Translations under genes and position numbers: made by a program
Part shown: piece after piece, positions 45,678-54,621 of the stretch
Layout of the letters: each line of letters begins with the position of its first letter
Position numbering within the stretch: position 1 is the first letter of the stretch
Notes under the pieces: model-generated
The model's database searches: none
Told to the model about the DNA's origin: nothing
The model's input: only the letters and a program-made list of their open reading frames with translations
Origin: Embleya hyalina
GTDB lineage: Bacteria > Actinomycetota > Actinomycetes > Streptomycetales > Streptomycetaceae
Reading direction: 5' to 3'
Assembly: GCF_003967355.1 (NCBI RefSeq)
Contig: NZ_BIFH01000017.1
Coordinates: forward strand, 395,065-459,064
DNA: 64,000 bases

Positions 45678-46841
45678 CTACGGCTTCGGGACGGGCAGGG
45701 GCAGGCCCTGGAGGGCGGCGGCCATGACCTCCGGGAACAGGTCGGGAGTGCAGGCGAAGGCGGGGCTGCCGATCGCGGACAGGGCGGCGGCGTTGGTGTG
45801 GTCGTAGGCCGGGGCGCCCTCGTCGGAGAGGGCCAGCAGGGTGACGAAGGTGGTGCCGGCGGCCCGCATGCTCGCCGCGCGGCGGACCATCTCGTCCCGC
45901 ACGCCGCCCTCGTACAGGTCGCTGATCAGCACGACGACCGTCTCCGTCGGCCGGGTGATCAGCGATTGGCAGTAGGTCAGCGCGCGGTTGATGTCCGTGC
46001 CGCCGCCGAGGCGGGTGCCGAAGAGCACGTCGACCGGGTCGTTCAGCCGGTCGGTCAGGTCGACCACGCTGGTGTCGAAGACCACCAGCGAGGTCCGCAG
46101 CGCGTGCATCGAGCCGAGCACGGCGCCGAACACCGACGCGTAGACCACCGAGGCCGCCATCGAACCGGACTGGTCGACGCACAGGATCACGTCCTTGCGC
46201 ACCCCGTGCCGGCGGCGCCCGTAGCCGACCAGGCGCTCCGGCACGATCGTGCGGTGCTCGGGCTGGTAGTGCCCGAGGTTGGCCCGGATCGTGGCGTTCC
46301 AGTCGATGTCCCGCGGGCGCGGGCGGTGCACCCGGGTCGAGCGGTCGAGCGCGCCCCGGACCAGGCTCGTGGTGCGTTGCGCGACCCGGCGCTCCAGGTC
46401 GTCGACGACGCGCCGGACCACCGCGCGGGCGGCCTCCTTCGTCGCCTCGGGCATCAGCGCGGTGAGCGCGAGCAGGGTGCCGACCAGGTGCACGTCGGGT
46501 TCGACGGCGGCCAGCATCTCCGGCTCCAGGAGCAGCCGGGTCAGGTCGAGCCGCTCGATCGCGTCCTGCTGGAGGATGCTCACCACGCCCGCCGGGAAGT
46601 AGGCGCGGATGTCGCCGAGCCAGCGGGCCACCGACGGCGCGGAGGCACCGAGGCCGGCGGCGCGCGGCCCGGTCGCCCGCCGACTGCCGCGCGGGGCCTG
46701 GCTCTCCGGGCGGTACAGCGCGCTCAGCGCCCGGTCGATCCGGGCGTCGTCGCCGGTGAGGCCGTGACCGGTGCCGTCGGGTTCGCCGCCGAGCACCAGG
46801 CGCCAGCGGCGCAGCCGTTCGTCGTCGGCCTCGTGCGTCAC
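45678..46841 (-). CDS. VWA domain protein of the MoxR-DUF5682-VWA operon
   Basis: A 387-residue protein. An N-terminal helical region (IDRALSALYRPES to RVAQRTTSLVRGALDRS) precedes a von Willebrand A domain at about residues 190-375 with an intact metal site: DQSGSM (DxSxS), GGTDINRAL and ISDLYEGG. VWA proteins paired with MoxR AAA ATPases act as substrate adaptors or metal-dependent scaffolds. GTG at 46841 overlaps the DUF5682 stop by four bases (GTGA). It is the last gene of a tightly coupled three-gene operon. Confidence 0.88.
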   Translation of the reverse strand: MTHEADDERLRRWRLVLGGEPDGTGHGLTGDDARIDRALSALYRPESQAPRGSRRATGPRAAGLGASAPSVARWLGDIRAYFPAGVVSILQQDAIERLDLTRLLLEPEMLAAVEPDVHLVGTLLALTALMPEATKEAARAVVRRVVDDLERRVAQRTTSLVRGALDRSTRVHRPRPRDIDWNATIRANLGHYQPEHRTIVPERLVGYGRRRHGVRKDVILCVDQSGSMAASVVYASVFGAVLGSMHALRTSLVVFDTSVVDLTDRLNDPVDVLFGTRLGGGTDINRALTYCQSLITRPTETVVVLISDLYEGGVRDEMVRRAASMRAAGTTFVTLLALSDEGAPAYDHTNAAALSAIGSPAFACTPDLFPEVMAAALQGLPLPVPKP

Positions 46842-49117
46842 GGGGTCACCTCCCGGTGCGCCAGGCCCAGGATCCCGGCCAGCAGCGGCAGTACGGCGTC
46901 GGCGCGCCCGCCGTCGAAGTGCTCGGCGGTCGCGATCGGGACGGCGGCCCGCGCCGGGGTGCGGATCCGCTCGCCGAGCAACCGGCGTTCGGGCGCGGCG
47001 AAGGTGGCGAAGGTGCGTCGCAGCAGCGGCAGGATCTCCACGAACAGGTCGTCGGGGGTGCCGGTGATCCAGGCGTCGACCAGGTCGAGGAGCCCTTCGT
47101 CGTGGATCAGCAGCATGCCGCCGCCGGCCAGGAATCCCTCGATCCAGGCGGCCGATTCGCGGTGCGGGACGCCCCGGGTGAGGGCGCGGGCCAGGCGGGG
47201 CGCGGCCGCCTCCGGCGCGAGGCGGCCCAGGTCGAGCAACAGGCGGGTGGCCCGGCCGGTGAGCAGGCCCGGCAGGTTCTCCCGGTCGGCGAGCCGCCGC
47301 AGGGTGGCGTACCACTCGTCCTGCCGGCGCTCCGGCAGCAGTTGTACCGCGGCGTGCACGTCGTCGAGGCGACGACGCATCGCCGCGGCCCCGTCGTGGT
47401 CCAGTCCGGCGCAGGCCGCGGGCAGCCCGACGCAGATCCGGACCACCAGGCCGGCCACGACGGTGTCGAGCGCCGAGGTGTCGGTGCCCCGGACGTCGCC
47501 GTAGCGCAGCGCCCGCACCAGTCCCGGCAGCGCGTCGGCGAGCCGGCCGACGTCGGCGTCCAGGGCGGCGCGCCGATCGAGCACCCGCATGATCACCGGC
47601 AGCGCGTCGGGCAGGTCGGCGCGCAGGCAACGCTCGGCGACCTCGGTGACGTCGGCGAGCGATTCGGCCCGGATCGCCAGGTCGCTCGCGCGCGCCTCGG
47701 CCGCGGCGACCACGGTGGTCCCCCACACGCCCGCCTCGGCCACCCGGATCGCCAACTCCGGCTGCCAGTCAAGCCGCCAGGTCTCCCGGAAGGTGCCGCG
47801 GCTCTCCCGACCCGGGACCGGCACGCCCCACGGGACGTCGAGCAGGGCGAGCCGGTTGAGCAGTCGGCTGCGGTCGGCGTGCGAGTCCTTGCGCAGGTCG
47901 AGTTCCAGTTCGCGGGCGGCGGGCTCGGGTCGCAGCCGCAGCCGGCGCTGCTCGCGGGTGAGGTCGCGCTGGAGCGGTACGGCGGGCACCGTCGGCGGCA
48001 CCTCGCCGATCACGTCGCCGACCACGAGGGCGTCGTGCACCAGCGCGAGCGGCCCGGTGACGCCGTCGCACATCACCGCACGGACCGCTTCGAGGGTCTC
48101 GTCCAGACCGGCCAGCGGTCGTCCGCGCAGCGCGGCGAGCGCGTCGGCGTGGCGGGTCGCCTCGATCACATGCGCCGAGGAGACCGGGTGGCCCGCCTCG
48201 CGCAGCAGCGTGGCGATCCGGACGAACCAGCGGGGCAGCGGGTCGGGCTCGGCGGCGGTGTCGAACAGGTGCCGGTACCAGCCCGGGGACGCGACCCCGG
48301 CCCCGTAGCCGGAGTTCTGCGCGAGGCGGTGGTGGGTCCACGGCACCCACGTGGTCTCCACCTTGACCGCGGCCCGGTGCGGCGCGAGCAGCGCGCGGTC
48401 GGCGGCGGCGGAGGGCGGGTCGGCGAGCGCGGGCACGTGCCAGGCGCCGCACACCACGGCGATCCGGGTGTGTCCGGCCCGGCGCGCGGCCCGGACGCAC
48501 TGGCGCATGTGGGCCTCGCGCAGTCGTTCGATGTCGGGCTCGGCGGTCGGGCCCGGGTCGACGGCGGGCCGCTCGTCCTCGCGCAGCGCGGCCATCGCCT
48601 CGGCGAGCGCCGCGAAGGGCCGCAGCGGGTCGTCGGCGGGCGGGCGGTGCTCGATCACGTCCTCCCACCAGTGCTCGGCGTCGTCCCGACCGGCCAGTCG
48701 GGCCAGCGCGGCGATCGGGTCCACCGGGGACGGGACGGGCTCGGCCGGCTCATCGTTCTCGCGCTCGCGGCGGGCCCGGTCGAGGGTGAAGGACACCGCG
48801 ACCGGCAGGTCGATGAACCGGACCGGGACACCGTGCCCGCTCGCGTGGGTGATGGCCACCCACTCGGGGCTGAAGTCGGCGTACGGCCAGAAGCCGGCCT
48901 GCGCGGGATCGTCGACCGCGTGCGCGAGCAGCGCGACGGGCGGACGCAGGCCGGGCTCGGCGGCGAAGGACAGCAGCGGGTCGGCCTCGGGCGGACCCTC
49001 GATCAACACGATGTCGGGCCGCAGCCGGGCCAGCGCGGCGCCGACCGCCCGGGCCGAGCCGGGGCCGTGGTGCCGTACCCCGAGCAGGGTCGGTCGCGCG
49101 GCCGGGAGCCGCGCCAT
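46838..49117 (-). CDS. DUF5682 family protein
   Basis: A 759-residue protein of the actinobacterial DUF5682 family. The N-terminal region (PTLLGVRHHGPGSARAV, DIVLIEGPPEADPLL, FIDLPVAVSF, IAVVCGAWHVPAL) resembles the TraB/PrgY/EreA fold, in which such His/Glu clusters could bind a metal. From about residue 400 a long alpha-helical region without motifs (many Leu/Arg/Asp) looks like a helical repeat scaffold. ATG at 49117 shares one base with the MoxR stop (TGATG). The activity is unknown. Fixed association with MoxR and VWA partners suggests it is the effector or client-recognition part of the complex. Confidence 0.85.
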   Translation of the reverse strand: MARLPAARPTLLGVRHHGPGSARAVGAALARLRPDIVLIEGPPEADPLLSFAAEPGLRPPVALLAHAVDDPAQAGFWPYADFSPEWVAITHASGHGVPVRFIDLPVAVSFTLDRARRERENDEPAEPVPSPVDPIAALARLAGRDDAEHWWEDVIEHRPPADDPLRPFAALAEAMAALREDERPAVDPGPTAEPDIERLREAHMRQCVRAARRAGHTRIAVVCGAWHVPALADPPSAAADRALLAPHRAAVKVETTWVPWTHHRLAQNSGYGAGVASPGWYRHLFDTAAEPDPLPRWFVRIATLLREAGHPVSSAHVIEATRHADALAALRGRPLAGLDETLEAVRAVMCDGVTGPLALVHDALVVGDVIGEVPPTVPAVPLQRDLTREQRRLRLRPEPAARELELDLRKDSHADRSRLLNRLALLDVPWGVPVPGRESRGTFRETWRLDWQPELAIRVAEAGVWGTTVVAAAEARASDLAIRAESLADVTEVAERCLRADLPDALPVIMRVLDRRAALDADVGRLADALPGLVRALRYGDVRGTDTSALDTVVAGLVVRICVGLPAACAGLDHDGAAAMRRRLDDVHAAVQLLPERRQDEWYATLRRLADRENLPGLLTGRATRLLLDLGRLAPEAAAPRLARALTRGVPHRESAAWIEGFLAGGGMLLIHDEGLLDLVDAWITGTPDDLFVEILPLLRRTFATFAAPERRLLGERIRTPARAAVPIATAEHFDGGRADAVLPLLAGILGLAHREVTP

Positions 49118-50229
49118 CAGGCCGGGTCCGCGTCGCGGCAGGCCCGGTAGAAGTCCTGCCAGTCGGCACGCGGGCGCACCGCGGTCTCCAGGTATTCGCG
49201 CCAGACCAGGGTGTCGGCGACCGGGTCCTTGACCACCGCGCCCAGGATCCCCGCCGCCACGTCGGCCGAGCGCAGCACACCGTCGCCGAAGTGCGCGGCG
49301 AGCGCGAGGCCGCCGGTGACCACGGAGATCGCCTCGGCGGTGGACAGCGACCCGGACGGGGTCTTCAGCCTGGTCCGGCCGTCTTCGGTGAGGCCGGCGC
49401 GCAGTTCGCGGAACACCGTGACCACGCGGCGCAGTTCGGCCTCGGCGCCGGCCACCGGCGGCAGTTCGAGGCCGGAGCCGAGCTGGGCCACCCGGCGGCC
49501 GACGATCTCCACCTCCGCGTCGGCGGTCGCGGGCAGCGGGAGCACCACGGTGTTGAACCGGCGGCGCAGCGCCGAGGAGAGTTCGTTGACCCCTCGGTCG
49601 CGGTCGTTGGCGGTGGCGATCAGGTTGAACCCGCGCACCGCCTGCACCTCGTCGTTCAACTCCGGTACGGGCAGGGTCTTCTCGGACAGGATGGTGATCA
49701 GCGAGTCCTGCACGTCGGCCGGGATGCGGGTCAACTCCTCGACCCGGGCGACCAGTCCGCGGCTCATCGCACGCATCACCGGGCCGGCCACCATGGCCGC
49801 GCGGCTGGGCCCGTGGGCGAGCAGTCGGGCGTAGTTCCAGCCGTAGCGGATGGCCTCCTCGGGGGTGCCCGCGGTGCCCTGGACGAGCAGCGTGGAGTCA
49901 CCGCACACGGCGGCGGCCAGATGCTCCGACACCCACGTCTTGGCCGTGCCCGGCACGCCGAGCAGCAGCAGCGCGCGGTCGGTGGCCAGCGTGGTGACGG
50001 CGACCTCGACGATCCGGCGCGGCCCGATGTACTTGGGCGAGATCACCGTGCCGTCGGGCAGCGTGCCGCCGAGCAGGTAGGTGGCCACCGCCCACGGCGA
50101 CAACCTCCACCGCGGCGGCCGGGGCCGCTCGTCGGCGGCGGCGAGCGCGGCCAACTCCTCGGCGAACGCGTCCTCGGCATGCTGCCGGAGCACGTCCTCC
50201 CCGACCGATTCGGCGGCAATTCCCACCAC
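49117..50229 (-). CDS. MoxR-family AAA+ ATPase
   Basis: About 370 residues of an AAA+ ATPase. Walker A is GVPGTAKTW, and the Walker B/lid region includes VARVEELTRIPADVQDSLI. Sensor 1 is in NLIATANDRDRGVNELSSALRRRF, with the ALRRRF arginine typical of MoxR. The N-terminus (RLSPWAVATYLLGGTLPDGTVISPKYIG) precedes the core. A GGGGGAG lies just before tandem GTG codons at 50229 and 50226; the second has the better spacing. It leads the MoxR-DUF5682-VWA operon. Such ATPases usually insert metal or remodel proteins with a VWA partner. Confidence 0.9.
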   Translation of the reverse strand: MVGIAAESVGEDVLRQHAEDAFAEELAALAAADERPRPPRWRLSPWAVATYLLGGTLPDGTVISPKYIGPRRIVEVAVTTLATDRALLLLGVPGTAKTWVSEHLAAAVCGDSTLLVQGTAGTPEEAIRYGWNYARLLAHGPSRAAMVAGPVMRAMSRGLVARVEELTRIPADVQDSLITILSEKTLPVPELNDEVQAVRGFNLIATANDRDRGVNELSSALRRRFNTVVLPLPATADAEVEIVGRRVAQLGSGLELPPVAGAEAELRRVVTVFRELRAGLTEDGRTRLKTPSGSLSTAEAISVVTGGLALAAHFGDGVLRSADVAAGILGAVVKDPVADTLVWREYLETAVRPRADWQDFYRACRDADPA

Positions 50230-50307
50230 GGCTCCCCCAGCGCTCGAACAAACCCGAACAGGGACAAGTCTGCCGGTCGGGTCCGACACGCCGAGGCGGC
50301 AAAGAGG

Positions 50308-50895
50308 TCAGAGGTGATCGAGCAGGAACCCGGTCTCGACGGTCGCGTCGAACGGCTCCGGCAACATCACCGACGCCCCGGCCTTCACCCGCTCCGTGAA
50401 GGTGTAACGCCCGTCGACCGGCCCGAAGCGCACGATAACGTCGTGCTCCTGCCGGTCGACCGTCAGCATCACCGGCACGTCGGCCCGCGCGAACTCATGG
50501 GGCTTTTCCCGTAGGTCGACACGACGTGTGCTGTTCGAGGTCACCTCGACGAACATCCAGACGCCGGACGCAGAAGTCGCGTGCCCATCGCGAAATTCGG
50601 CTGTCTTGCGGGTGTCGACGACGACGAGGTCGGGCGTACGTTCGGTGCCGATTCCCACCAGAAAGGCAACGCCTTCCAGCACGACGACCTCGGCCGGCAG
50701 CCGCGGTTCGAGCAGGTGGCGCAGACCCGTGACGATCCGGGCGTGCTCCCAGTCGGGTGACGCCTGCATAACCAGGCCGGACGGTGACGCCTCCCAGCGC
50801 ACAGCCTCGGGAAACTCGTCGGATGCGCGCAGTATCCGCAGGGCGGCCAGGCGCCACTTCGCCAGTGGGTCCGTCTCGGTGCCTTCGTCACTCAC
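50308..50895 (-). CDS. Uma2/DUF820-family PD-(D/E)XK nuclease-fold protein
   Basis: A 195-residue protein of the Uma2 family. PDLVVVDTR and WMFVEVTSNSTRRVDLREKPHEFA carry the Asp, Glu and Lys expected of a PD-(D/E)XK site (PD...ExT...K), and ADVPVMLTVD follows as in Uma2 proteins. Members are suspected endonucleases but most are uncharacterised. GTG at 50895 has AGAGGA seven bases upstream; an in-frame start at 50958 is possible. It lies between the MoxR gene and a second Uma2 copy on the other strand. Confidence 0.82.
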   Translation of the reverse strand: MSDEGTETDPLAKWRLAALRILRASDEFPEAVRWEASPSGLVMQASPDWEHARIVTGLRHLLEPRLPAEVVVLEGVAFLVGIGTERTPDLVVVDTRKTAEFRDGHATSASGVWMFVEVTSNSTRRVDLREKPHEFARADVPVMLTVDRQEHDVIVRFGPVDGRYTFTERVKAGASVMLPEPFDATVETGFLLDHL

Positions 50896-51126
50896 AAGGT
50901 GATCCTCTCGTGGCAGGGGCCCACGAATCGTCACGGGTTCGCGAACCTTCGATTGCATGCCTGCTCCCTGATCTTGTGCTGGGAAATCTCCCTTCGATAT
51001 TGGTGGGTTCCGGCATTCGATCCGCGTCGGCCGCTCACGGATGAGTGGAATCCGACGAGATCCGACACTCCGAGTCGAACGTCCACTATCGTCGCAGGTT
51101 TGATCGACAACGCGGGGAGGACACCG

Positions 51127-51758
51127 GTGCGCTCTCGACCTTCGTTGCCCTGGTCACCCATCGAGCCCGAAGGTGGTTGGACCGCCGAGGACCTCGATCG
51201 GCTTCCACCAGGCGCCCCGCCCGGGTGGAACTGCTCGACGGGATGCTGGTCGTGCGGTCCCCGCAGTCGTTGCTCCACTCGGAAATGGTCGGCGACCCGA
51301 CCCGATCCCTCGACGCGCAGGCCCCGGCCGCGCTCACCGTGGTCCGTCGCATGACGGTGCGCGTCGGGCCGCGATCCCGGCCGGAGGCAGATGTGTTGGT
51401 CGTGCGGACCGACTCCGCCACGAACCCGGATCTCATCATGTTCCAGCCGGCCGACGTGCGATTGGTCGTCGAAGTGGTCGCCCCGGATACGCGGGCACAC
51501 GATCGAGGGATCAAGCCCGCGCTGTACGCACGGAGCGGCATTCCGTACTTCCGGCGCGTCGAGCAGGACACGGAGGGCACGACCGTCCACGTTCACCGGC
51601 TCGACCCCGCGACACGCACCTACGTCCCGACCGGCGGGCATCGTGCCGCCATGAGACTCGATGTGCCGTTCCCGGTCGTGGTGGATGTGGCCGCGTTGGC
51701 TCACCGAGCCGAACGGGGCTCACCGTCGAGGATTTCCCGGCGCATCCCGGCCCGGTAG
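51127..51758 (+). pseudogene. Uma2/DUF820-family gene with a one-base frameshift
   Basis: GTG at 51127 has an excellent GGGGAGGA six bases upstream and opens VRSRPSLPWSPIEPEGGWTA, then EDLDRLPPGAPPGW, the normal Uma2 N-terminus. After TGG at 51226-51228 the next codon should be GAA (WELLDG); one G is missing. The rest (VELLDGMLVVRSPQSLLHSE, RPEADVLVV, LVVEVVAPDTRAHDRGIKPALYA) continues in the next frame to the stop at 51758. The PD-(D/E)XK residues survive downstream (EAD, EVV, K). It is either a recent pseudogene or a one-base sequence error. Its 3' end overlaps the DUF5691 gene by 58 bases, tail to tail. Confidence 0.8.
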
Positions 51759-53197
51759 CGGAGGGTTTCGGCGAGAGCGCGGAAGGCCTTGGGCCATTCG
51801 CCGTCGCCTTCGGCGAGCCCGTCGACGCGGGTGACCAGTGACGGGTCGAGGCCGCGGCCGGCGACGTCTCGGGCGCCGCTGAAGCTCCAGGGGTACGCGC
51901 CTGATCCGGCCGCCGTCGCGAAGGCGTCCAGGACCGCGTCGCCCAGCGAAACGGGCCACGGGGTCGGGCAGTTGGTGAGCAGTTGCAGGGCCTCGGACAG
52001 GCCGTGCTCGGCGATGTGGCGGGCCACGTGGTCGGCGCACTCGGCCGGCGGCAGCACGGTGAGCAGGCGGGTGGGCGCACCGCGACCGGCCAGTGCCCGG
52101 GCCCAGTCGACGTCGCGCTGGAGCACCGCCGCGCGGGCCCAGCCCTCCCGGACGTCCTCGGCGAACCGGCGCGGCAGCGCACGGGCCGCGATCTCCTCGG
52201 GGCTCGCCCCGAACACCTCCCGCCACACCGACAGCGGCGTGGCCGCGACGACCTCGCCCAGCCACCACGAGTGGTCCTCGCGCCCGGTCGGCGAGGACCG
52301 GTCGATCCCGTCCCGCAGCATCGCCTCGTCGCACTCGCCCGGCGGCACCACCAGCACCCGCCCCGCTCCGTCGGGTCGCAGGCAGGCCCGACCCCGCGCG
52401 CTCATCCGGGCCACGAACGCCGATCCGGGCAGCGCGCCGAGGCGCCGCGCCGCGGCCACCCGGACCACCTTGGCCCGATCGTCCAGGGCCGCCTCCAGGA
52501 ACGCCTCGTCGCCCGCCGTCGCCCCGGTGCCCAGCGCCTCGACGAACACCGCGCGGTCCTCGGCCGGTTCGGCCCGCCAGGTCCGGGCCAGCAACTCCCT
52601 GGCCGCGTCCGGGTCCGCGGCCCGCAGCACCGCGAACGCGGCCAGCCGCTCGCCGAATCGGCCGTGCCGCCACAGGTCGATCGGGTCGTCGGGATCCCCG
52701 GCCGCGATCCGGGTCAGCCAGGCCCACTCCGGGTTGAGCCCGGCCAGCCAACGCCCCCTCGGCCCGGCGAGTTCGGCCACGATCGCCCGCAGGTCCGTGC
52801 GCGAGCGGGCCGCGGTCAACAGGCCCGGCAGTTCGGACTCGGGCGCCCGCAGGCCGGCCGTCCGGGCCACGGCGAGCCATTCCGGCAGGAAGTCCATCCC
52901 GTCGCCTTCGAGCAGGATCCGCAACCGCACCCGGGCCGACTCCGGCACCGACGGTCGCGGGTCCACCTCGGCGCACGGCTCCGGCGGCGCGCCCGCGGGG
53001 GCCCGTCGGCCCGCTCGCCGATGCACCATCACGATCGCCGCCAGGTCGAGCAGCCGGACCGCCTCGTCGGTCCGGTCCACCCGCGCGGCCAGCTCGCCCA
53101 GCGCACCCTCGGCGGGCCATTCCGCGGCCCTGCGCCGCCCGGTGCCCACCAGTGCCGCCGACACCAGGTCGTCCCACACCGGATCCGCGACCCGCAT
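51701..53197 (-). CDS. DUF5691 family protein
   Basis: A 498-residue protein matching the actinobacterial DUF5691 family. The start MRVADPVWDDLVSAALVGTGRR is typical, and long alpha-helical segments with HEAT/ARM-like spacing follow (ARELLARTWRAEPAEDRAVF, DEAFLEAALDDRAKVVRVAA, ARRLGALPGSAF). No catalytic motif is seen. ATG at 53197 has GGGGAG six bases upstream. It lies 107 bases downstream of the SWIM gene on the same strand; in related genomes these two usually precede MoxR-DUF5682-VWA. The role is unknown, perhaps a scaffold. Confidence 0.82.
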   Translation of the reverse strand: MRVADPVWDDLVSAALVGTGRRRAAEWPAEGALGELAARVDRTDEAVRLLDLAAIVMVHRRAGRRAPAGAPPEPCAEVDPRPSVPESARVRLRILLEGDGMDFLPEWLAVARTAGLRAPESELPGLLTAARSRTDLRAIVAELAGPRGRWLAGLNPEWAWLTRIAAGDPDDPIDLWRHGRFGERLAAFAVLRAADPDAARELLARTWRAEPAEDRAVFVEALGTGATAGDEAFLEAALDDRAKVVRVAAARRLGALPGSAFVARMSARGRACLRPDGAGRVLVVPPGECDEAMLRDGIDRSSPTGREDHSWWLGEVVAATPLSVWREVFGASPEEIAARALPRRFAEDVREGWARAAVLQRDVDWARALAGRGAPTRLLTVLPPAECADHVARHIAEHGLSEALQLLTNCPTPWPVSLGDAVLDAFATAAGSGAYPWSFSGARDVAGRGLDPSLVTRVDGLAEGDGEWPKAFRALAETLRYRAGMRREILDGEPRSAR

Positions 53198-53304
53198 CCC
53201 GAACTCCCCTTCCACACATGGCGATCGTCCCCATGACGATCGGCCGCCGAAGATCGGCGGCGGTGTCCGTCCCGCGCCCGATCGGGCCGGTCGCGGCCGA
53301 CCGG

Positions 53305-54621
53305 CTACAGCGGGACGGCTCGGCCCTCGTGCCACGCGGTCACCGGGACGAATCCGCGCGCGCCGTACTCGCCGAACACGGTCAGCCCCGTGCCGCCGGA
53401 CATCGCGGACAACCGCCACAGCGCCTGCTCGCCGGTCCGGGCCCGGTCCACCGGCAGCCAGAACCCGTCCGCGCCGGCGATCCGCCACCCCATCGGCTCC
53501 GGCACCGCCACCACGTCGGCGAGCACCACCGGCCAGGCCTCCAGCCAGGGCTCGCGGCGCAACGCCTCGGCGTAGGCCAGGGTCGCCTCCTCGGGCCCCA
53601 CCCCGGCCGGCTCCGCCCCGGCGGCCGGCTCACCGGTCCGCTCGCCCAGCGCCACCCGCAGCGGCACCGCGTCGTCGTGGAAGGCCGCGTCGGCCTCGAT
53701 GGTGCGCCCCACGGGCAGGGCCAACCGCGGCGCGCGCCCCTGCGGCCCGAAGGCCAGCACCAGCGCGGGCCGGCCCGACCCGATGCCGCGCAGCCAGATC
53801 CGCCGCTCGGTCAGTCCGCCGTCGACGCTGTCCCGGCTGCCGAGCACCAGCCACCGATCGTGCACCGCGGTGCCCTCGGCCCGCGCCGCCCGCAGCACGT
53901 CCTCCGCGTCCACGGTCCAGCCGATGCGCGCCCGCAGTCCGGCCACCAGCGACGGATCGAGGTCGTCGGCGTGTTCGTGGGCGCGCAGGAGCAGCCACAA
54001 CTCGGCGTAGTCCTCCAGCAGTCGGCCCGGCCAGCCCTCCGCCCCGGACGCGGGTATCGCGCCCGCCGCGCGCAACCGGGCGGCCAGGCCGGGGGCCTTG
54101 GCGTCGACCATACGCTCCGCGATGCCGTCCCACATCGCGTATCCCTCACGCTCGGTGCCCACCAGCCCCTGGTGCACCCGATCGGCCAACCACCGGCGCA
54201 ACCGCTCGGTGCCCTCGGCGACTTCGGCCGCCCGCCGCTCGGCGCGGCGCCGGGCCGCGGCGGGATCGGCCAGACCGGCCCGCGCCCGCCGCCCGGCCGC
54301 CGGGGCGTCGACCCAGTCGGGGACGGTCGCCCCGACCGGCACCGCGGCCGGATCGTTCGCCCACAGGAGCAGCAGGCCGAGGGCGTGTGCGCAGGGAAAG
54401 CCCGGTCCGGGACACGAACATCGGCCCGTGGGACCGGCGGGATCGACCACCGTGCGGTAGGCCGTCGCGCCGCCGCCGGACCCCCAGATCGGGCCGCCCG
54501 CGATCGCCGAGGCACCGGTGGCCGACCACGACTCCGGTCTCGCGAGGGCGCTCCCGGCCGTGCGTGCTGCGGCGTCGGGAGCCAGTGCCAACACCCGTTC
54601 CGCGGTCCACCGTTGCTGCAT
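53305..54621 (-). CDS. SWIM zinc-finger family protein
   Basis: A 438-residue protein with an N-terminal SWIM finger of the pattern Cx-C-x(n)-C-x-H in GRCSCPGPGFPCAHALGLLL, at about residues 67-85. SWIM fingers bind zinc and often nucleic acid or protein. The N-terminal WTAERVLALAPDAAA and the helical remainder (RRAERRAAEVAEGTERLRRW; EDYAELWLLLRAHEHADDLD) are typical of the family partnered with DUF5691. ATG 54621 starts MQQRWTAERV. It is the first gene of the SWIM-DUF5691-MoxR-DUF5682-VWA block. Confidence 0.87.
   Translation of the reverse strand: MQQRWTAERVLALAPDAAARTAGSALARPESWSATGASAIAGGPIWGSGGGATAYRTVVDPAGPTGRCSCPGPGFPCAHALGLLLLWANDPAAVPVGATVPDWVDAPAAGRRARAGLADPAAARRRAERRAAEVAEGTERLRRWLADRVHQGLVGTEREGYAMWDGIAERMVDAKAPGLAARLRAAGAIPASGAEGWPGRLLEDYAELWLLLRAHEHADDLDPSLVAGLRARIGWTVDAEDVLRAARAEGTAVHDRWLVLGSRDSVDGGLTERRIWLRGIGSGRPALVLAFGPQGRAPRLALPVGRTIEADAAFHDDAVPLRVALGERTGEPAAGAEPAGVGPEEATLAYAEALRREPWLEAWPVVLADVVAVPEPMGWRIAGADGFWLPVDRARTGEQALWRLSAMSGGTGLTVFGEYGARGFVPVTAWHEGRAVPL

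Follow-up and report, generated by a model that had tools for sequence, protein, structure and literature searches.

A five-gene MoxR-VWA system with DUF5682 in Embleya hyalina and its relation to the YehL class

The genome of the actinobacterium Embleya hyalina (an assembly of 12.05 Mb in 78 contigs, GCF_003967355.1) was examined in a stretch of 64,000 nucleotides (contig NZ_BIFH01000017.1, positions 395,065 to 459,064, forward strand); the term window refers below to this whole stretch, in which all positions are counted. The window contains five minus-strand genes which encode a SWIM zinc-finger protein, a DUF5691 protein, a MoxR-type AAA+ ATPase, a DUF5682 protein and a protein with a von Willebrand factor A (VWA) domain. 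These five families almost certainly constitute one functional system which, as judged from sequence comparison, belongs to the known YehL class of MoxR proteins and represents a variant of it with SWIM and DUF5691. The genes, whose position and strand agree with those of the initial annotation, are as follows.

54621-53305, minus strand: SWIM zinc-finger protein, 438 residues (PF04434, E 3e-4, 20.7 bits against a cut-off of 19.6)
53197-51701, minus strand: DUF5691 protein, 498 residues (PF18944, E 8e-150)
50229-49117, minus strand: MoxR-type AAA+ ATPase (YehL homologue), about 370 residues (AAA_5, PF07728, E 3e-37)
49117-46838, minus strand: DUF5682 protein (YehM homologue; probable SCO4804 counterpart by synteny), 759 residues (PF18934, E 9e-281)
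46841-45678, minus strand: VWA_CoxE protein (YehP homologue), about 387 residues (PF05762, E 4e-54)

Gene content, linkage and co-retention

The block is not a product of chance, as all of its genes belong to curated families and other phyla have the set too, with its order unchanged. The tight coupling of the last three genes, noted initially as overlaps of 1-4 bases, holds: the AAA and DUF5682 genes share 1 base (TGATG) and the DUF5682 and VWA genes share 4 (GTGA). The SWIM and DUF5691 genes are separated by 107 bases, without overlap, and an alternative start at 50289 is possible for the AAA gene and would give a longer product. The SWIM motif is CSCPGPGFPCAH (54420-54385; pattern CxC-x6-CxH), the Walker A motif is GVPGTAKT (49959-49936) and the metal ion-dependent adhesion site (MIDAS) motif of the VWA protein, in which VWA_CoxE and VWA_2 are the only domains matched, is DQSGSM (46175-46158). 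These sites are conserved among relatives: G94, T95 and K97 (Walker A), E164-E165 and R223-R224-F225 are invariant in 16/16 aligned AAA proteins, MIDAS residues D222, S224, S226 and D307 in 17/17 aligned VWA members (T281 in 16, with N in one), and CxC..CxH in 17/17 members of the SWIM alignment (A6).

Gene neighborhoods were compared in the best 80 of 579 DUF5682 relatives obtained from a scan of named genomes, mostly Streptomyces. All five genes occur together in 69 of the 80 loci, and nine of the 11 loci without at least one of them are cut by contig ends. In L075, an ambiguous locus, 1.7 kb without a VWA gene follows DUF5682, and in the cyanobacterial locus L107 no VWA gene lies within 10 kb downstream, the upstream side being cut. 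The five-gene set was found in five phyla. Nine loci were fetched from 18 plasmid and phage hits, and six of them (Deinococcus, Hymenobacter, Rhizobium, Methylosinus, Nonomuraea and Methylobacterium) carry the five genes on one strand and in the same order; the remaining three are L059 (Fusobacterium), without a DUF5691 match, L061, with AAA, DUF5682 and VWA alone, and L062, with the DUF4132 layout described below. L061 (MT835988) is an "unverified bacteriophage" fecal scaffold, possibly a bacterial fragment filed as phage. Gene fusions were found on both sides of the set: SWIM-type proteins are fused to DUF5691 in L050 (866 residues), L056 (3,030 bases), L114 and L136, and DUF5682 is fused to VWA in L030, L031, L035 and the C15 copy of the E. 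hyalina genome itself.

Within the 69 complete loci the SWIM and DUF5691 genes are divergent in 58 and co-directional in 11. Divergent pairs were observed in Streptomyces-like genera, and the window has the order of the other phyla. A derived origin of the co-directional order was rejected, since Catenulispora, Nocardiopsis, Leptolyngbya, Deinococcus and Rhizobium are co-directional too. Embleya scabrispora, the nearest named relative among the best 80 of 579 (82% in DUF5682), has the same layout as the window.

Among 198 Actinomycetota genomes DUF5682 occurs in 17, and DUF5691 is over cut-off in 16, all within those 17; the DUF5682 genome without DUF5691 over cut-off (G124) has a DUF4132-type locus. 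Among 146 cyanobacteria, DUF5682 and DUF5691 (both over cut-off) and the profiles of the AAA and SWIM proteins identify the same 8 genomes, with wide score gaps (AAA, at least 527 bits, next match 48; SWIM protein, at least 245, next 22.5; VWA, at least 415, next 24), and VWA is found in 7 of the 8, the genome without it (G279) being highly fragmented. Omitted from these counts are below-cut-off DUF5691 matches (3 actinobacterial and 7 cyanobacterial genomes, out of 19 and 15 in which DUF5691 matched at all), one sub-cut-off DUF5682 match (G295) and weak matches outside the eight (AAA in 33 genomes, at most 45 bits; SWIM in 4, at most 22.5; VWA in 1, 24.3). The five genes are clustered in four of the 8 cyanobacterial genomes. 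In G243 and G307 they are scattered over a single contig of about 5 Mb, the closest pair being 68-74 kb apart and others up to megabases, and in G359 all five are present on five separate contigs. As these three genomes keep all five genes though scattered, neighborhood inertia cannot account for their co-retention. Support for the multi-protein system proposed initially is thus strong and comes from linkage, from gene fusions and from co-retention without linkage; the same evidence suggests that the products may form a stoichiometric complex.

The block is not contiguous, as had first been thought, since two Uma2-like genes separate DUF5691 from AAA.

50308-50958, minus strand: putative Uma2 endonuclease, between DUF5691 and AAA (PF05685, E 2e-13; PADLOC PDC-S03, E 2e-13)
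51225-51758, plus strand: second Uma2-like frame (phmmer E 2e-6 to 3e-5 to the first), which shares 58 bases with the 3' end of DUF5691

Among the 69 complete loci, besides the window, Uma2 occurs at this site only in E. scabrispora (L064), in one copy; both genes are insertions and are excluded from membership of the system. Upstream of the block lies the gene for a B12-binding acyl-CoA mutase subunit and downstream lie sucC and sucD, which encode succinyl-CoA synthetase. Streptomyces-like genera keep the block between these neighbors, sucC and the mutase gene each being present in 59 of the 69 complete loci.

The distribution also bears on the idea of a nucleotide-driven conflict system, raised in the initial annotation with regard to MoxR-VWA pairs and considered here as an anti-phage system of the MoxR-vWA ternary kind. 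The engine parts are common to both (MoxR and VWA in a three-gene core), the phylum-level spread is patchy (over cut-off in 17/198 and 8/146 genomes) and one DUF4132-type locus lies on a conjugative plasmid (Sinorhizobium). Against these stand the lack of any PADLOC match at E 0.01 for the five proteins, a bpMoxR score of 20.0 bits against a cut-off of 27 with no other conflict-system domain in the Pfam matches of the window proteins, and zero relatives in viral contigs. Phage records gave 1 hit in 50,697, an unverified scaffold, and plasmid records 17 in 72,556, 16 of them typed non-mobilizable (tblastn with the window protein at E 1e-5, at which diverged forms may be missed). Carriage by phages or plasmids as a rule was rejected on these viral, phage and plasmid counts. 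Furthermore, the place beside the mutase gene and sucCD is conserved in Streptomyces-like genera, DUF5682 is present in all 8 genomes of the window's family among the matches listed (the listed genomes without a match, ordered by increasing distance, begin with other families), and the five genes are retained even where scattered. No effector or EAD domain over cut-off was found in the scanned proteins (EAD1 in the DUF5691 protein of L046 scores 18.0 against 24.2). The absence of PADLOC matches and viral-contig relatives, together with the fixed place beside sucCD in Streptomyces, makes a conflict system an improbable explanation.

The YehL class and the component proteins

MoxR proteins are split into seven subfamilies, YehL among them (PMC3893208), and the core triad is already known as the YehL class. 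The AAA protein of the window shares 42% identity with Escherichia coli YehL (225 bits; RavA, 21.6 bits, E 0.89), in a protein-by-protein comparison of subfamilies that covered these two. The VWA protein shares 35% identity with YehP (219 bits; ViaA, 28 bits, E 0.009) and the DUF5682 protein 26% with YehM (E 3e-33). The window therefore displays several traits of the YehL subfamily: an AAA+ protein closer to YehL than to RavA, adjacent YehM and YehP homologues, and a SWIM motif. The earlier description of the system as uncharacterized applies in part; the triad resembles yehLMP of a named subfamily, and a mutant of SCO4804, by synteny the Streptomyces DUF5682 gene, has been published. In the PDB, chains of Midasin (E 5e-30) and NorQ (E 2e-5) are matched by the AAA+ profile. 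Membership of the Mg/Co chelatases (ChlID/CobST) was rejected, TIGR02442 scoring 22 bits against a cut-off of 779.

Relatives of the triad occur in distinct layouts. Type A, that of the window, joins the triad to SWIM and DUF5691, and type B (E. coli, L032, L051 and the Sinorhizobium conjugative plasmid) joins it to DUF4132 and a different SWIM protein, with WGR in L032. DUF4132, which is not known to be required in the YehL subfamily, was not found at the window locus, and the single DUF4132 match of the E. hyalina genome lies on C15. This type-B relative (L052) consists of DUF4132, a 1,624-residue protein without Pfam match, AAA, a DUF5682::VWA fusion of 1,353 residues and a 609-residue SWIM-motif protein. 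L030, L031 and L035 are laid out as L052, the one locus in which the SWIM motif was sought. A third form, present in the same genome (L053, C18) and in L033 and L034, includes an unknown protein of 464-649 residues, VWA, AAA and a strongly diverged DUF5682 of about 934-948 residues in which the His/Glu/His residues are kept.

Residues H16, E40, D103, R200, E201, G224 and H227 of DUF5682 are identical in 55/55 sequences representing all three forms, and the first GxxH glycine is kept in 47/55. H16 (codon 49072-49070) and H227 (48439-48437) each belong to a GxxH, with E40 (49000-48998) between them. This GxxH...E...GxxH arrangement is taken here to be that of the Tiki/TraB superfamily. Its Tiki members have been described as metalloproteases (PMC12329661). 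When the DUF5682 profile was compared with that of eight TraB proteins, a 51-column stretch was aligned (hhalign score 31.7, P 0.0014), in which REAxMR...VAVVCGAWH of DUF5682 is aligned with RNxxMR...VVAVGALH of TraB. In the controls none of 200 column shuffles reached this score (best 24.1), the reversed profile scored 18.5 and six unrelated profiles at most 18.1; DUF5682 against EreA gave 20.4, within the control range, and TraB against EreA itself just 14.5, so that these scores speak neither for nor against EreA as the nearest relative of DUF5682. In Pfam searches of 17 DUF5682 members TraB matched one (E 0.065) and ChaN two (best E 0.083), below cut-off. Sequence search gave no relative of DUF5682 with a solved structure, and TraB relatives were not found nearby in 41 related genomes or in 5 others. 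The initial TraB-like label has modest support: the His/Glu/His residues in all 55 sequences and the TraB match above controls favor it, and the noise-level Pfam matches do not. A relation of DUF5682 to Tiki/TraB proteins is plausible, although not established.

DUF5691 had been called a helical scaffold. The basis for this is a HEAT_2 match in one member (L048; E 6e-4, 20.6 bits, below the cut-off of 27.7) and best solved-structure matches to alphaRep/HEAT repeats that are non-significant (E 0.13-0.74), so that the protein is possibly a HEAT-like alpha-solenoid. In the actinobacterial family f26 (L044-L047, L049) DUF5691 matches only the first 146-210 of 491 model positions and is shortened; the gene was called in four of these loci and has 262-286 codons there.

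Streptomyces counterpart and proposed function

In Streptomyces coelicolor, SCO4800 is isobutyryl-CoA mutase (PMC6629963) and SCO4808/4809 is succinyl-CoA synthetase (PMC8981147). The genes for DUF5691, SWIM, AAA, DUF5682 and VWA of Streptomyces coelicoflavus are among those between the mutase and sucCD counterparts, and its DUF5682 protein has 814 residues counted from its GTG (815 for SCO4804). The Streptomyces DUF5682 gene would thus be sco4804. According to PMC8120823, with a transposon in sco4804 about 50% of the TopA protein and about 70% of the topA transcript remain and gyrB falls as well, whereas the supercoiling of plasmids stays as it was; the insertion has a polar effect on sco4805. 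Further, overexpression briefly raises topA and gyrB transcripts, with sco4805 raised too; and sco4804 and adjacent genes are induced eightfold upon TopA depletion. The terms MoxR, VWA, AAA+ and DUF5682 are absent from the main text of that paper.

The explanation first considered by the discoverers of this phenotype was that SCO4804 is a DNA-binding activator of topA transcription, in which case the neighboring genes would be incidental. This agrees with a topA promoter activity that falls on disruption and rises on overexpression, but the purified protein, as described in the same source, binds DNA non-specifically only, with no binding left once competitor DNA is added, and does not interact directly with TopA (PMC8120823). 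The effect on topA is therefore regarded as indirect, as its authors also call it. Moreover, DUF5682 has no DNA-binding family over cut-off and is retained jointly with AAA, VWA, SWIM and DUF5691, and a direct activator is extremely improbable.

The explanation preferred here is a single ATP-driven machine for protein remodeling, of the YehL class, serving chromosome-topology homeostasis in Streptomyces, a reading which, taken as a whole, stands in even balance. MoxR-VWA remodeling with DUF5682 as a true subunit is its likely part; chromosome topology or DNA stress as the physiological field of the system, to which the sole physiological lead points, is proposed tentatively, with somewhat more doubt than confidence. 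Gene content, linkage, fusions, co-retention and conserved sites were observed directly in this analysis. We infer the assembly, the mechanism and the client, and the phenotype, published for S. coelicolor, is transferred by synteny. The conserved core would consist of an AAA+ ring (YehL type), a MIDAS-bearing VWA protein (YehP type) and DUF5682 (YehM type). If the machine works as NorQ/NorD and CbbQ/CbbO do, its VWA protein would dock on the ring and use the MIDAS metal to grip a client, which the ring would then remodel at the expense of ATP; for NorQ/NorD the VWA domain has been modeled in the MoxR ring, and the MIDAS is reported to be needed for client activation, not for NorQ binding (PMC9976466). 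DUF5682, presumably an enzyme-like third subunit with an invariant two-His/one-Glu site, possibly of Tiki/TraB type, may act on the client or read its state, and should sit at the VWA end, as it is fused to VWA in some lineages. The SWIM and DUF5691 proteins, fused together in some lineages, would make up a second sub-assembly, an exchangeable recognition pair in whose place other lineages use a different SWIM protein and DUF4132. In Streptomyces the system would be induced upon TopA depletion and its loss would lower topA and gyrB expression indirectly.

A different account of the same engine is a maturation chaperone for one dedicated metal- or cofactor-enzyme in the style of NorQ/NorD, CoxD/CoxE and CbbQ/CbbO, which would insert a metal or free an inhibited active site, the topA effect being a distant metabolic consequence. 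It draws on the CoxE type of the VWA domain, on the NorQ/NorD precedent (PMC9976466), on the B12-binding mutase and sucCD genes that flank the block in Streptomyces-like genera and on the loss of light in the sco4804 mutant, which exceeds the loss of topA transcript and was ascribed by the authors to cofactor supply or metabolism (PMC8120823). However, sucC and the mutase gene, the two neighbors covered by the client-neighbor profile tests, are absent from other type-A loci examined (e.g., L055-L058, L113, L127, L133, L136). SWIM and WGR domains bind nucleic acids or proteins and, to our knowledge, are not a feature of NorQ/NorD-like chaperones; likewise, we know of no DUF5682, SWIM or DUF5691 partner of the NorQ/NorD, CbbQ/CbbO or RavA/ViaA pairs. 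A dedicated chaperone is considered unlikely, though not negligible.

Several observations weigh against the topology machine. The sco4804 assignment is based on synteny and length and not on S. coelicolor sequence, and the spacing does not fit exactly: PMC8120823 gives 103 and 171 non-coding bases around sco4804, and in S. coelicoflavus the upstream gap is 126 bases, with a downstream overlap or a gap of 38 depending on the start chosen. The link to topA may be secondary, given the modest effect, the unchanged supercoiling, the polar insertion and the metabolic loss of light. Direct SOS/LexA control was rejected, GAAC-N4-GTTC being found once against 0.4 expected in 65 SWIM-AAA intergenic regions (mononucleotide shuffles). 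The relation to Tiki/TraB is weak (hhalign probability only 17.7%, one stretch); the matching stretch holds the second GxxH, not the first or the Glu, and the Pfam TraB and ChaN hints are at noise level, since unrelated families such as CBM46 (E 0.017) score better. The SWIM-type proteins of three cyanobacteria with scattered genes (L195, L196, L197) are without the SWIM motif; as their C-terminal 300 residues or so are kept and the finger is lost, the C-terminal domain seems to be the constant part. Those of G243 and G307 are very similar, and the two genomes may represent one rearranged lineage or event. DUF5691 and DUF4132 have no detectable similarity, and the exchangeable pair is positional only, because neither these proteins nor the two kinds of SWIM protein are detectably homologous. 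Finally, paralogues in the E. hyalina genome outscore E. coli YehL and YehM with the AAA and DUF5682 proteins, for which reason homology and class are claimed, not strict orthology.

A more specific version of the topology machine is highly speculative: DUF5682 might be a Tiki-type metalloprotease or hydrolase that is fed by the MoxR-VWA ring and steered to the chromosome by SWIM/DUF5691 or WGR/DUF4132, and the machine, driven by ATP, would clear or process proteins stalled on DNA, for instance topoisomerases or gyrase. If true, this would explain the induction upon TopA depletion in Streptomyces, give a function to E. coli yehLMPQ and account for the DUF4132 protein DRA0166 and the WGR protein DR2173 in the mitomycin C-induced DdrO regulon of Deinococcus, as described in PMC8533742, where MolR is cited as LexA-regulated and the words MoxR and VWA are absent. 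Neither DUF5682 nor DUF5691 is named among the matches listed in the literature text searches, and no function of YehL is given in the available text of PMC3893208 or in the other literature matches listed.

The analysis links the YehL subfamily, by synteny, to a Streptomyces phenotype that was published without that context, assigns two DUFs to what is probably a machine and presents the five families as a real unit even when scattered. The function of E. coli yehLMPQ, like that of the Streptomyces cluster, thereby becomes open to direct test. The SWIM/DUF5691 variant, the unlinked co-retention, the possible Tiki/TraB-like site and the SCO4804 link were not met in print among the matches listed, a scope outside which most subscription papers fall; they may be new, earlier publication being possible.

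Comparison with known systems

NorQ/NorD, CbbQ/CbbO and RavA/ViaA combine, as the window does, a MoxR AAA+ protein with a MIDAS-bearing VWA protein, but the similarity of RavA (E 0.89) and ViaA (E 0.009) to the window proteins is at or near noise. The MoxR-vWA ternary conflict systems, described with VMAP, iSTAND and beta-propeller proteins (PMC7159879), also join MoxR and vWA to a third protein; in the window, unlike in these systems, the third protein is DUF5682, and the set is rarely on mobile elements. Pfam matches named VMAP, iSTAND or beta-propeller were not found in the proteins scanned, a model for each in Pfam not having been confirmed. With the Tiki/TraB proteins (YbaP, Tiki, ChaN) DUF5682 would share GxxH...E...GxxH and an R..xM...GAxH stretch within its N-terminal 230 residues; it differs from them in an extra C-terminal region of about 500 residues and has no Pfam match to them over cut-off.

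By synteny, the corresponding cluster of S. coelicolor would be sco4801-sco4805, between SCO4800 and SCO4808/4809. The Streptomyces SWIM-DUF5691 pair is divergent, whereas that of the window is co-directional, and the Streptomyces loci are without a Uma2 profile match.

The E. coli locus, yehI-yehK-yehL-yehM-yehP-yehQ, has DUF4132 (yehI) and, downstream, a two-motif SWIM protein, whereas the window has DUF5691 and an unrelated-looking SWIM protein upstream; homology of the latter to YehQ beyond the motif was not detectable with the A6 profile (hidden Markov model, E 0.63). As in the window, a SWIM protein is encoded alongside the core, and neighboring genes overlap in both (in E. coli, yehM/yehP by 8 bases and yehP/yehQ by 4). 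The AAA+, DUF5682 and VWA proteins of E. coli K-12 yehL-yehM-yehP align with those of the window over nearly their full length and are encoded in the same gene order.

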